The notes beneath the pieces are model-generated. The model was not told the DNA's origin. It made no database searches and saw only the letters and a program-made list of their open reading frames with translations. Of a DNA stretch of 64,000 bases, positions 37,431 to 46,505 are shown piece after piece. A program made the position numbers and the translations under genes. The DNA comes from Candidatus Rokuibacteriota bacterium (GTDB taxonomy: Bacteria; Methylomirabilota; Methylomirabilia; Rokubacteriales; CSP1-6), in assembly GCA_030647435.1 (NCBI GenBank), contig JAUSJX010000135.1, positions 1 through 64,000 on the forward strand. Reading direction: 5' to 3'. Position 1 is the first letter of the stretch. The number at the start of each line of letters is the position of its first letter.

Positions 37431-37946
37431 ATGGCAGGCGGATCCATTGAGAGCGGACGGGGCATCACCATGCGGCGGGCGACGCCGGCCGACGCGGGCG
37501 CCATCGCGCGGATCTACAACCAGGGCATCGAGGACCGCATCGCCACCTTCGAGACACGGCCGCGGATGGCCGAGGACGTCGCCGGCTGGTTCGACGGCAT
37601 GCATCCGATCGTCGTGGCCGAGCAGAGCGGGCAGGTCGTCGGCTTCGCCTCGACGTCCTCCTACCGGCCGCGCGAGTGCTACGCGAAGATTGCCGAGTTC
37701 TCCGTGTACGTCGCGCGCGACTACCGGCGTCGCGGCGTAGGACGCCGCGCGCTCGAGGCGCTCATCGAGGAATCAGCCAAGGCCGGGCTGCACAAGCTCG
37801 TTTCACGCATCTTCCCGGAGAACCTCGCGAGCCGGGCCGCGTGCCGCGCGGTGGGATTCCGCGAGGTCGGTACGTACAAAGCGCACGGCCAGCTCGAAGG
37901 CGTCTGGAAGGACTGCGTCGTCGTCGAGCGCCTGGTGGGCCGCTAG
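37431..37946 (+). CDS. arsN1: ArsN1-type GNAT acetyltransferase (arsinothricin/phosphinothricin resistance)
   Basis: 171-aa GNAT enzyme that would acetylate the amino group of arsinothricin or phosphinothricin. The sequence MRRATPADAGAIARIYNQGI, then RIATFETRPRM, ASTSSYRPRECYAKIAEFSV and RRRGVGRRALEALI (acetyl-CoA pyrophosphate loop), matches the ArsN1/PAT family closely. ENLASRAACRAVGF is the usual motif B. Translation could start at 37431 or at the ATG at 37470, where conservation begins. Context with ars genes supports ArsN1 over a generic PAT. Confidence 0.85.
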   Translation: MAGGSIESGRGITMRRATPADAGAIARIYNQGIEDRIATFETRPRMAEDVAGWFDGMHPIVVAEQSGQVVGFASTSSYRPRECYAKIAEFSVYVARDYRRRGVGRRALEALIEESAKAGLHKLVSRIFPENLASRAACRAVGFREVGTYKAHGQLEGVWKDCVVVERLVGR

Positions 37947-41586: not shown

Positions 41587-44160
41587 TCAGCGTCCCACGA
41601 GGAAGAACGCGCCCCAGTAGTGGGGGTGCGTGTACTCGGGCTTGGCCAGCAGCACGGCGCTGGCGCGGCGCGCGGCCTCGGGAAGCGCGGCCTGGGCGGC
41701 CTCACGGTAAAACGTCTCCATCCACAGCGCCGTCGAGGCCGAGTCCACCTTCCACTGTGTCAGGAGCAGGGACCCAGCCCCCGCATAGATGAGCGCGCGC
41801 TGCATGCCGATGACTTCCCCGGCGTGGGTCGCCTCGGCGCGGCCGGTTTCGCACGCGCTCAGCGTGACGAGTCGCGCCTGGCCGAGCGGCAGCCCGTACA
41901 TCTCGGCTGCACTGAGGCGCCCATCGGCGCCCGAGGACCGCCTGAGCTCGATATACGAGAGCAAGGGCTCCGGCCCGTCGAAGACGCCGTGAGCGGCCAG
42001 GTGCAATACCCCATGGCTCGCCACGCGGCGCGTGACTTCCTCCTCCGTGGCAGCCTCATCGAGCAGCAACGTCACCCGCCCCGCCGGGTACAGACGCGAG
42101 ATCGCCTTGACCTCGTCCACTCCCGCGGGGAGCCGCGGTCCCGCCACGGCGAGCATCGAGCTCCCGGCAAGCCCGCCGCCAGGCTTGAGCCTGCTGAGCA
42201 CGGTGGCGCTCGGCGCGTACGAGATCCGGACCTTCTCGCCGAGGAACCGGCCGTCCGAAGGATCCTGAAAGACCTGGAACGGCACGTAGTGCAGATCCTC
42301 ATGCGGGACGACCACGAGCGTTCCGCTCTTGACCCACTGAAGCATCGGCTCGACGAGGAACAGGAACATCTCGCGCGCCGTCCGCGTGTCGAATGGCGTC
42401 CGCGGATTGACCAGGCTCTTCCTCAGCGCATCGACCTTGGCGCCGAGCTCGGCTCGGGGCAGGAAGACGTTGCGCACGTGGACGCCGCCGCTCCCGATGT
42501 GCCAGACGATGACACCGGTGTCGAGGACGAGGTATTCGAGCACGTCATAACGGCCGGCCGTAGCGCCCTGGAGAACCTCCCCCAGCGGAACCGGCTCCGA
42601 GAAGGCCGGCTCGAGCAGACCCGGCGCAAGCCGCTGCATCTCCTGGGCGGCGCTCGCGCGCTCGCGCTCCAGCCGCTCGAGGTCCTGTTCGGCCGCGCCC
42701 ACGCCGGCCGCGTCATAGTCGGGGCGCGTTCGCAGGTCGAACAGCTCTTTCTGCAGCCGCCCGATCTTCGCACGCAGCTCCTGGTGGCGAGCCAGCAGCG
42801 CGCGCTGGCGCTGGTCGGTCGCCCCGCTCCGCGTCGCCAGCAAGTCGGAAAGCACGCGCGAACGGGACGCCTCCATAAGCCGGAATGCCTCCGCCTGCTT
42901 GCCGCGCTGGAGGAGATGGAGGATCGGCGGATAGTAGAAGTCTATCTTGTCCTCGAGGAAGACGCCCCGCGCCTCGCTGTCACTCGCCCGCTGCCGATCA
43001 CCCTCGAGCAACGCCACAGCGCGCAGGTAGGAGGCGAGGGCGGCATCCCCGTCGCCGCGCATGTCGGCCTCGATCCCCCGGACGTACGCGCCCCGCGCGT
43101 CGGTGCCCCCTGGAAGGCCGCCCATCGCCGCGATTGCCTCGACCAACTCGCGCGGCACGCCGCCACCGCTCGTCACATACCGTTCCGACACCAATGCGTC
43201 GCCGGGTTTGGCGGGATGGAACTGCCCGACGACGGACGCGTGCATCCGCTTGCGGTTCGCGATCAACTGGCGGCGCGTCTCGATGTTACGGATGAACTGG
43301 TCGATTTGGCGGATGAGGCCCGACCACCCGAGGGTCGTCCCGATCGATCGCGCGGCCTCATAGTCGGCGCGCGCCCGCTTCGCATCCTCGTCGCACTCCA
43401 CGAATGTCAGCTTGAAGTCGCAGCGGGCGGCGAGCTTCCCGAAAATGTCGGCGCGGTCGAGCAGCACGTAGAATCGCGCGCGGTCGTCGCTGAGCTTGGC
43501 GTAAATGGCCAGCGCCCGGTTGATGCCGTCGGCGCCGGCGACGACATCGCCCTGCTCCACATCGAGCTGGGACTTCAGCTCGATGCCGCGAGCAAGGGTG
43601 CGACGATCGGGCAGGGCGGCGGCCACACGGATCGCCTCGTCCGCCGCGCTTGCCGCCGACCGGTAGTCGTGCAGCGCGCCCGCGCCGAGCTGCGTGCGTA
43701 CCTGACCGATGAGCGCCTCGGCGAGCGGCTGGACAGCCCGCTCGGCCCGCGCCAGGCGCTCGCCTTCGCGGTACCGGCGGCTCGCCTCGCTGAGCAGGTT
43801 CTGGACCCAGCGCTGGTCTTCGGCGGACATCTGCACACCCAGGCGAAGCTGGCTCAGCATGCGCACGACGTCACCGGACTTGACCAGACACGTGGCGGCA
43901 CCGGCGCGGTCACCGACCGTCATCAACGCCGGACACGCCTGGTCGAGCTCGGACAGGGCCTGCTGCAGGTCGCCGGCGCGAGACCGCAGCTCAAGGGTGC
44001 GCGCGAAGTGGTCGCGGGACGCTTCGACCCGCGCCAGCGCCCGCTGCATCAGCTCGGGCGCGCTGCCCTGCGCCCACACCGGGACAGGCGCGATCGCGAC
44101 GAGTAGACAGACACAGGAGACAAGCAGAAAACACGAACGCCGACCGGGCAACTGTTCCAT
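41587..44160 (-). CDS. Secreted TPR/coiled-coil CHAT-domain protein (caspase-like peptidase fold)
   Basis: 857-aa protein with a Sec signal peptide (SCFLLVSCVCLLVAIAPVPV, cleavage after WAQ). The N-terminal half is a helical TPR-like solenoid; a coiled coil follows around the LRAKIGRLQKELFDL segment. The C-terminal CHAT domain has the catalytic histidine in VLHLAAHGVFDGP and cysteine in LVTLSACETGRA, with PHEDLHYVPFQVF and the terminal HPHYWGAFFLVG. Both catalytic residues are present, so protease activity is plausible. GGGAGG precedes the ATG at 44160; a longer frame upstream is rejected. Most CHAT proteins are cytosolic, so export is unusual. Confidence 0.88.
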   Translation of the reverse strand: MEQLPGRRSCFLLVSCVCLLVAIAPVPVWAQGSAPELMQRALARVEASRDHFARTLELRSRAGDLQQALSELDQACPALMTVGDRAGAATCLVKSGDVVRMLSQLRLGVQMSAEDQRWVQNLLSEASRRYREGERLARAERAVQPLAEALIGQVRTQLGAGALHDYRSAASAADEAIRVAAALPDRRTLARGIELKSQLDVEQGDVVAGADGINRALAIYAKLSDDRARFYVLLDRADIFGKLAARCDFKLTFVECDEDAKRARADYEAARSIGTTLGWSGLIRQIDQFIRNIETRRQLIANRKRMHASVVGQFHPAKPGDALVSERYVTSGGGVPRELVEAIAAMGGLPGGTDARGAYVRGIEADMRGDGDAALASYLRAVALLEGDRQRASDSEARGVFLEDKIDFYYPPILHLLQRGKQAEAFRLMEASRSRVLSDLLATRSGATDQRQRALLARHQELRAKIGRLQKELFDLRTRPDYDAAGVGAAEQDLERLERERASAAQEMQRLAPGLLEPAFSEPVPLGEVLQGATAGRYDVLEYLVLDTGVIVWHIGSGGVHVRNVFLPRAELGAKVDALRKSLVNPRTPFDTRTAREMFLFLVEPMLQWVKSGTLVVVPHEDLHYVPFQVFQDPSDGRFLGEKVRISYAPSATVLSRLKPGGGLAGSSMLAVAGPRLPAGVDEVKAISRLYPAGRVTLLLDEAATEEEVTRRVASHGVLHLAAHGVFDGPEPLLSYIELRRSSGADGRLSAAEMYGLPLGQARLVTLSACETGRAEATHAGEVIGMQRALIYAGAGSLLLTQWKVDSASTALWMETFYREAAQAALPEAARRASAVLLAKPEYTHPHYWGAFFLVGR

Positions 44161-44284
44161 GGCGCGACCTCCCACCAAGCTCGATGCCTCCGGGACGTGC
44201 GGCTCACCGGGAGAATACAGCATCGGTACGACGCCCGGCCGGATTCTTGCCCTTATTGATGGCGCGAGCGATGAAGAACGCGCG

Positions 44285-45727
44285 TTACAGGACGACGCCC
44301 GACACACCTTCGTGGAGCGCCGGCTTGAGAGGGCCGAACTGGCCCTCGGTTGGCTCCGCTCAGCAGAACCACGCTTCGGTCAGCCTGGGCGGCCGCCGTC
44401 TGTCCGGCGCGAGCGCCGGCTCGGGCTCGAGCGGCAGGCCCGCCGTCGAATGGGCGAGAGCTTTCAGCCGGTAGAACGTGGCGGCCGCATCCTCGGTGGC
44501 CGCGGCCTCGACGAGGCGGCTGGCCTCCCGCTGAAGCAGGTCCATGCGCGGGTCGGGATGCGTCCAGCGATGGATGAAGGCGGCCTGGTCGAGCGGACCC
44601 AGGTACGGCGTGATCGCCTCGCGCGTCAGCAGGGCCGAGCCGGGCGGGACCAAAAGCCGCAGCGCGAACTGGACGGGGTCGACGTGGTCGATCAGCCCTT
44701 CCCGCTCGACGAACTCGAACATGTCCAGATAATCCTCGAGCGTCGTCCACGGCGTGAAGGCGACCCACGTGGGCCGGAAGGCGATGCCCGCCTCCCGGAC
44801 TATCCGAAGCGCGTGCGGCACGTCGGCGCGCGCGTGGCCCTTCTCAAGGTTGCCGAGAACTACATCGCTCAGCGACTCGACGGCCGAGATCATGAAGGCG
44901 CAGCCGAGCGCTCGCAGCTCGGGAAACAGTTCCTCTCGTTCAATGATGTGCTCGACCTTCGCGGTGAAGTCGAAGCTCAGCGACGGGAACTCGGCGTGCA
45001 TCGCACGAACCACCGCGAGCGAATGGCCCGGACCGTTCAGAAAATCCGGGTCGCCGAAGGTGATGTGGGTCGCGCCTTCCCCCACCAGCTGACGGATGTC
45101 AGCGAGGACGATCTCCTGCGGCACCACGAAGAAGCGGCCGCCGTACACGGGCGGGATCGGGCAGTGCAGGCACAGGTGCAGGCACCCGCGGCTTGCCTCC
45201 ACGTAGCCCACAAGATCCTTGCGGCCGTCCCTGTCCAGATGCGCGTACTTCTTGAGGCGCGGCAGCGCCCCCCGGCTCGGCACGGGGAAAGGCAGACGAT
45301 CGAGCACAGGCTTGGCGGCGTGGCCCCGCAGGTGGACTCCCTCGACCACGCCCGGACGCCCGGCCGCAAGCGCCTCCACGAGCGCCACCAGCGCCGACTC
45401 GAACTCGCCGCCGATCACCGAGTCGCCGCAGTGCGCGAGCAGGTACTCCGCGTTCAGCGACGCGTAGAGCCCGTAAAAACAGATGTGACAGCCCGGGTTG
45501 ATCCGCCGGATCATCGTAGCCACGCGGACACCCAGTCGGAGCGCCGTGTGCATGGGGACGGAGATCGCGACCAGTCCGGCGCGCGCCGCCTTGTCGGCGT
45601 CGAACTCCTCGACGGAGATGTCGAGCGCATCGGCGACGAAACCGGCGCGCTCGAGGAAAGCCAGCGGCGAGGCGACCGCCAGCGGCTGGTGGCCCAGCTC
45701 ATAGCAGGAGACGAGCAGGATTCGCAT
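44285..45727 (-). CDS. CUAEP-tail radical SAM selenoprotein (in-frame TGA read as Sec)
   Basis: 480-aa radical SAM enzyme if the TGA at 44362-44360 is selenocysteine, as argued here; 455 aa if it is a stop. Residues 1-120 form a B12-binding-like Rossmann domain (MRILLVSCYELGH), and 175-430 the radical SAM barrel with cluster motif C182-x3-C186-x2-C189 (ASRGCLHLCLHCP). The tail reads LTEAWFC-U-AEPTEGQFGPL, then 16 more codons to TAA at 44287-44285. I recall a named radical SAM family with CUAEP or CCAEP tails. A SECIS-like hairpin lies at 44329-44347. It starts 4 bp after the methyltransferase stop. Substrate unknown. Confidence 0.82.
44329..44347 (-). promoter_or_regulatory. Bacterial SECIS-type hairpin after the in-frame TGA
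   Basis: In the mRNA, GAGGGCC (44347-44341), loop AGUUC (44340-44336), GGCCCUC (44335-44329): a perfect 7-bp stem. The loop begins 19 nt after UGA, within the 16-37 nt window reported for bacterial SECIS elements, and a G occupies the second loop position as the consensus requires. The hairpin lies inside the extended coding sequence. Confidence 0.75.
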
Positions 45728-45731
45728 CAGC

Positions 45732-46505
45732 TCAGCCCTGACGCGCCGTGGCCACGATGAAGAGGCGGCGGAACGGCAAGAGCGTGCGGCCATCGGCGCG
45801 GCGCGGATAGGCGCGGGCGACCAGCTCGGCGTATGCGGACTCGAAGCCGCTCCGGTGCGGCTCGTCGAGCGCGTCGAGCAGCGGCTTGAGCCACGTGCCC
45901 TTGGTCCACTCCTTGACCGGGTGCTCGCCTTCGAGCACCTGGAGATACTCGGTCTCCCAGATGTCGAGGGCCGCGGCGCGCGGTGAAAGCACGCCGTAAT
46001 AGAAGGCCGGCTCAGCGACCGGTATCGGGCTGAGCAGCGGCTCGAGCTTCGCCTTCCACGGCCCGCTCCGCGCGGCTTCGACCATCGCGGTGTGAGACGG
46101 CGCGGAGAAATTGCGGGGCATCTGCACCGCGAGGACACCGCAGGGCGCCAGCGCGGACAGCAGCGCGGGGAAGAGCCGCTCGTGGTCGCCGAGCCAGTGC
46201 AAGGCCGCGTTGCAATAGATGACGTCGGCCGGCCGCTCCGGCCGCCACGTCGCGAGATCAGCCCGCTGCCACGTGATCTCCGGGGCCGCCGCGGCCGCCT
46301 TCGCGAGCATCTCCTGCGATGCGTCCACGCCGGTGACGCGCGCGTTCGGCCACCGCGCCTTGAGGAGGCGCGTCACGTTGCCCGCGCCGGCGCCCAGGTC
46401 ACAGACCTCGCCCGGGTCGGCGGCGTCGATCCGGTTCAACAGGTCGACCGCCGGCCGCAAACGCTGGTCGGCGAACTTCAGGTACTGCGCTGGGTCCCAG
46501 GCCAC
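45732..46505 (-). CDS. tam: Trans-aconitate 2-methyltransferase-like SAM methyltransferase
   Basis: 257-aa class I methyltransferase. It is collinear with E. coli Tam: MAWDPAQYLKFADQRLRPAV, SAM motif VCDLGAGAGNVTRLL, VTGVDASQEMLAKA, ADVIYCNAALHWLGDH, GVLAVQMPRNF and the terminal LPFRRLFIVATAR. It could detoxify trans-aconitate, but the coupled radical SAM gene may mean another substrate. Located 4 bp upstream of the radical SAM start. Confidence 0.85.
   Translation of the reverse strand: MAWDPAQYLKFADQRLRPAVDLLNRIDAADPGEVCDLGAGAGNVTRLLKARWPNARVTGVDASQEMLAKAAAAAPEITWQRADLATWRPERPADVIYCNAALHWLGDHERLFPALLSALAPCGVLAVQMPRNFSAPSHTAMVEAARSGPWKAKLEPLLSPIPVAEPAFYYGVLSPRAAALDIWETEYLQVLEGEHPVKEWTKGTWLKPLLDALDEPHRSGFESAYAELVARAYPRRADGRTLLPFRRLFIVATARQG

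Follow-up and report, generated by a model that had tools for sequence, protein, structure and literature searches.

A relative of the protein examined here is the radical SAM enzyme ArsL, which makes AST-OH from As(III) in Escherichia coli (PMC8552651); PMC12159101, citing Yao et al. 2024, reports that ArsL transfers a 3-amino-3-carboxypropyl (ACP) group to arsenic. A second group, the CUAEP/CCAEP-tail radical SAM (seleno)proteins, is defined by the NCBIfam equivalog model NF040546 (curated cut-off 500 bits) and is known by sequence and by a name taken from its C-terminal tail. A literature search on the family name returned no paper naming NF040546, although a mention in Haft and Gwadz 2023 or Haft and Tolstoy 2025 is possible. 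In a 64,000-nucleotide contig segment of a Candidatus Rokuibacteriota bacterium (the window), we analysed a gene at 44285–45727 whose 480-aa product matched positions 1–467 of the 468-position NF040546 profile with 687.7 bits. The next best NCBIfam model was ArsL (NF040542, 330.8 bits, cut-off 450), and all remaining models scored at most about 48 bits. By sequence, the protein is thus a member of this already catalogued family, which is the radical SAM family with CUAEP or CCAEP tails that the initial annotation had named.

The features of the locus are compiled below. The extension past the UGA at 44362–44360 was checked letter by letter and reads AEPTEGQFGPLKPALHEGVSGVVL; with the UGA read as selenocysteine (Sec), the protein would end in PRLTEAWF-C-U-A-E-P-T-E-G-Q-F-G-P-L-KPALHEGVSGVVL-stop, in agreement with the open frame first proposed for this position. 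Pfam places a B12-binding-like domain and a radical SAM domain (PF04055) on the protein. Directly 3' of the gene lies a large gene for a CHAT-domain protein (41587–44307, minus strand), which was not seen next to family members at other loci.

Features of the predicted selenoprotein gene and its neighbours in the window
Feature	Position	Strand	Basis or remark
Predicted CUAEP-tail radical SAM selenoprotein gene	44285..45727	-	480 aa, Sec at 456; TGA read as U
Start codon ATG	45727-45725	-	letters checked directly
CX3CX2C (C182, C186, C189), predicted radical SAM [4Fe-4S] cluster ligands	45161..45184	-	conserved throughout 116 family members and in three ArsL; PF04055
C455-U456 dyad	44360..44365	-	without exception in 116 CUAEP/CCAEP sequences; falls on the CC of three ArsL in the alignment
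UGC, C455	44365-44363	-	letters checked directly
In-frame UGA, predicted U456 (Sec)	44360..44362	-	in the alignment, 55 homologues have Cys here and 60 others UGA
Predicted SECIS hairpin, 7-bp stem GAGGGCC/GGCCCUC, AGUUC loop	44329..44347	-	covariation in 30 Sec homologues; Sec/Cys contrast
Terminal stop TAA	44287-44285	-	letters checked directly
Tam-like (trans-aconitate methyltransferase-like) class I SAM methyltransferase	45732..46505	-	NF002463, 287.9 bits, just below cut-off 297
ArsN1 family A arsinothricin-resistance N-acetyltransferase (ArsN1a)	37431..37946	+	NF040503, 219.3 bits, cut-off 170; 6.3 kb from gene, link putative

Almost every homologue carries a C-[CU]-A-E-P tail, and an alignment to the CCAEP homologues found the C-[CU] pair strictly conserved (116 sequences). 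Among 106 family genes, 54 encode CCAEP and 52 CUAEP, a ratio that is no census because one scan pattern favours CC; the first residue of the pair is always Cys. CUAEP/CCAEP enzymes occur in more than 10 phyla among the sequences gathered in this analysis. In the CCAEP proteins of Thermogemmatispora (L090, L091, L092, L101, L103), the C-terminus is prolonged by an additional Cys-rich stretch that contains more CC pairs, as in SSDCCGVGH. In a Thermomicrobium roseum plasmid record (L032:9369–9371), the annotated CUAEP coding sequence stops exactly at the Sec UGA, by which the conserved tail is lost; the record illustrates the annotation hazard of calling a stop at a Sec codon.

Bacterial SECIS elements were recognized as hairpins 16–37 nt after the UGA with a G among the first two loop positions. 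The window hairpin, with arms at 44347–44341 (GAGGGCC) and 44335–44329 (GGCCCUC) and the loop AGUUC at 44340–44336, has its loop start 19 nt after the UGA and a G at loop position 2, so that its place, loop distance and G are all as initially described. Taken singly, it does not exceed what chance would give: when the window gene is recoded synonymously, 5.5% of the versions have an equally long stem and 30% an equally stable fold, because the encoded TEGQFGPL favours such a stem. This much would suit a UGA that is a genuine stop followed by an untranslated extension. As significance was weak for the single gene, it was replaced by covariation across the family. In 30 distinct Sec homologues with a 5-nt loop, 94.3% of cells were paired and the stem contained 28 two-sided changes, as compared to 7.0 ± 2.0 in shuffles and 1–6 in slid registers. 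A stem of at least 6 bp was present in 49 of 52 Sec genes but in only 5 of 54 Cys genes. Across the family, the predicted hairpin is therefore far beyond chance, and the covariance check suggested at the outset gave a strong signal. The extension is also conserved at the protein level, with a pN/pS among eight close relatives of 0.29 overall and 0.37 beyond the hairpin.

The machinery for Sec, another check proposed early on, is encoded elsewhere in the genome with all of SelA, SelB, SelD and tRNA-Sec. The genes selA (584 bits), selB (381 bits) and the tRNA-Sec (71 bits, anticodon tca) form a single cluster on contig 56, and selD (343 bits; contig 98:94090–95046, L027) has its own in-frame TGA, which makes it apparently a selenoprotein gene itself. 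SelB scored above cut-off in 20 of 23 CUAEP genomes versus 7 of 27 CCAEP genomes, many of them incomplete (Fisher p = 1.7e-5). In 60 relatives, every NF040546 match above cut-off contained exactly one in-frame TGA, and at least 11 Cys/Sec interchanges were counted on a tree built without the tail and rooted with ArsL from Pseudomonas, Alicyclobacillus and Priestia plasmids. A second CUAEP gene of the same genome (contig 120:6613–8013, minus strand, L025) is 74% identical to the window copy and has the UGA and the same kind of hairpin; on the tree it lies outside the genus clade of the window copy. It is flanked downstream by NifU/NfuA-like and ATP-grasp genes and upstream by SufS-like, IscU-like, cysteine-synthase-like and rhodanese-like genes. 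Decoding of the UGA as Trp, or plain readthrough, was rejected, since homologues have Cys at this site and none has Trp. Hairpin covariation, the Sec/Cys contrast in stems and the codon constraint together leave little room for a plain stop, and with 55 homologues having Cys there and the Sec machinery in the genome this alternative appears extremely improbable. The window gene almost certainly encodes a selenoprotein, as judged from these sequence comparisons, and the original proposal of a Sec-containing radical SAM protein with a bacterial-type SECIS element is supported by covariation, Sec/Cys contrast and machinery alike. Of the two outcomes named in advance as refuting it, homologues lacking the tail and a genome lacking the machinery, neither was observed.

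The CUAEP/CCAEP family is, from its sequence relationships, sister to ArsL. ArsL scores 336 bits on NF040546, and identity between CUAEP and ArsL proteins is only about 34–39%. In three ArsL sequences, the Cys-Cys of the C-terminal RCCLKC falls on the C-[CU] pair; RCCLKC was sought in the window protein and not found, CUAEP standing in its place with the dyad alone aligned. Fifty-nine positions, the tail dyad included, are common to the three ArsL sequences and 95% or more of the CUAEP/CCAEP family. Among them are the barrel residues E10, H184, D228, D253, P319, W327 and H390, which occur in no more than one of six further radical SAM proteins that the genome encodes. The third tail Cys of ArsL is Pro in CUAEP proteins and no further non-cluster Cys is invariant, so that acceptor binding must differ between the two. 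The AlphaFold2 model (mean pLDDT 93, pTM 0.91) is unsure in the last 18 residues and has AprD4 (PDB 6fd2) as nearest solved fold, with a TM-score of 0.65–0.69; a PDB search turned up no highly identical ArsL relative. Of 119 aligned sequences, 117 lack the cobalamin motif DxHxxG, even though the fold is matched by PF02310.

Clustering of the open reading frames around 121 loci by all-against-all BLAST identified an ATP-grasp protein as the commonest neighbour (68 of 121 loci, two ArsL plasmids among them; almost always within 4 kb). It carries ATP-grasp_4 and LAL_C2 domains, has distant similarity to dapdiamide and anticapsin ligases, and adjoins the CUAEP/CCAEP gene in Nitrospirota, Nitrospinota, Acidobacteriota, Ignavibacteriota, Chloroflexota, Myxococcota and the relatives of the window organism. 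At loci with enough flank, adjacency was observed for 22 of 44 Sec and 24 of 33 Cys genes. Within the 60 relatives, 40 of 41 genomes having the radical SAM gene also encode the ATP-grasp, as opposed to 3 of 18 without it (one genome with an N-terminal fragment alone was omitted, and kinship inflates the p-value). The two ArsL plasmids encode a related ATP-grasp, and the one from the Alicyclobacillus plasmid, used as query, had exactly two matches in this genome, both of them CUAEP-type ATP-grasps. In the genus of the window organism, the ATP-grasp has moved away from the gene; the copies of this genome are on contig 86 and on contig 120, there by the second CUAEP gene. Being unlinked to the window copy, the partner was invisible to the initial annotation. 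A functional link between the CUAEP/CCAEP enzyme and the ATP-grasp is likely. A NifU/NfuA-like protein is encoded near the CUAEP/CCAEP gene at 31 loci. At all five loci L186–L190, where the ATP-grasp is unlinked from CUAEP, a gene for a luciferase-like oxidoreductase (F420/flavin type, by eye) lies divergently upstream.

The initial annotation had instead regarded pairing with the Tam-like methyltransferase as characteristic of the system. Its stop codon is 4 nt from the radical SAM start, so the two genes are probably co-transcribed. As a functional partner of the family it was rejected, since it adjoins the gene at only 2 of 118 family loci, the window and a congener (L152); it is a local companion outside the general system. 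We also searched all loci for the genes known from ArsL plasmids (ArsC, ArsB, ArsR, ArsM, ArsN, ArsQ and aquaporin), and an arsenic operon around the gene was dismissed because matches were scattered. In L152, an ArsC-like protein and an aquaporin are encoded some 2 kb past the gene, and five Ktedonobacteria-type loci have an ArsB-like permease 3–4 kb upstream; arsenic genes near CUAEP genes are rare and might be at about chance level. ArsN1a, with two copies above cut-off in this genome, was discarded as a co-occurring marker because most relatives have it regardless of CUAEP. With ArsN1a common in either case and most loci free of arsenic genes, we did not count the neighbourhood as evidence for arsenic.

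The best explanation we can offer, by analogy with ArsL and at a probability of about 0.5, is ArsL-like ACP chemistry on an acceptor held by Cys-Sec, followed by ligation by the ATP-grasp. The enzyme would transfer the ACP group of SAM to a soft atom, and the C-terminal Cys-Sec pair would hold or reduce the acceptor, which might be trivalent arsenic, another metalloid or a chalcogen. The unusual amino acid so formed would be joined to another one by the ATP-grasp, acting as an L-amino-acid ligase. The selenium of the tail can be exchanged, as Cys takes its position in lineages mostly lacking Sec machinery. For the ACP step in the CUAEP enzyme taken by itself, the odds appear roughly even, whereas arsenic as the acceptor is rather doubtful. 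That some lineages have the gene almost universally is easier to reconcile with a core function than with an antibiotic and counts against the ArsL-like reading, as do the low identity to ArsL, the Pro in place of its third tail Cys and the rarity of arsenic genes nearby.

Placed at the C-terminus after a Pro-rich linker, a vicinal thiol-selenol pair has a layout typical of redox functions. The tail could be a redox arm comparable to the Cys-Sec terminus of thioredoxin reductase, serving to reduce the enzyme itself, its product or a substrate such as an oxidised metalloid, while ordinary 5'-deoxyadenosyl chemistry acts on an unrelated small molecule before ATP-grasp ligation. Such a role would agree with AprD4, a canonical 5'-deoxyadenosyl enzyme, as nearest solved fold and with the missing conserved third metalloid ligand. 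We regard it as possible but less likely: the dyad lines up with the ArsL tail, As(III) being the substrate of ArsL, and the barrel residues that ArsL and CUAEP have in common separate these two from the genome's other radical SAM proteins. Closer still to ArsL, the enzyme could itself make hydroxyarsinothricin, with the Tam-like methyltransferase replacing ArsM and the nearby ArsN1a conferring self-resistance. The kinship to ArsL, the methyltransferase 4 nt upstream, ArsN1a within the window and the ArsC-like protein and aquaporin in L152 are in line with this. It is nevertheless improbable, as the methyltransferase is near the trans-aconitate methyltransferase model rather than ArsM and lacks conservation, ArsN1a is common in relatives irrespective of CUAEP, and most loci have no arsenic operon around the gene.

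While the family was already known by sequence and named from its tail, the functional hypothesis is new. Kinship to ArsL, alignment of the dyad and the strong ATP-grasp partnership point to a two-enzyme pathway that could be rebuilt in E. coli. Tentatively, the CUAEP/CCAEP enzyme and the ATP-grasp may constitute a widespread two-step pathway, in which ACP is placed onto a metalloid or chalcogen held by Cys-Sec or Cys-Cys and the resulting amino acid is ligated into a peptide, giving an undescribed class of natural product or cofactor, with Sec serving a radical enzyme as the handle for its substrate. If ArsL-like ACP transfer to such an acceptor were true, it would enlarge the small set of enzymes known for making ACP radicals and would be an example of radical chemistry in which selenium handles a soft element.

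As compared to known systems, the window protein matches NF040546 over its full length, tail included and well above cut-off, with no differences in the protein itself; particular to this genome are its two copies and the separation of the window copy from its ATP-grasp. ArsL shares the domain plan with CUAEP, likewise without a cobalamin motif and with an aligned C-terminal dyad, and some ArsL clusters also include an ATP-grasp, but the C-terminus of CUAEP is longer, its second dyad residue is Sec or Cys, AEP replaces LKC, and the arsenic operon is not around it. AprD4, a radical SAM diol dehydratase, is cobalamin-free as well; it is only 19% identical to the window protein, acts on another substrate class and has no C-U tail. 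The ATP-grasp partner has the ATP-grasp_4 and LAL_C2 domains in common with the L-amino acid ligases BacD and DdaF and is weakly similar to their models, with all scores far under the cut-offs.
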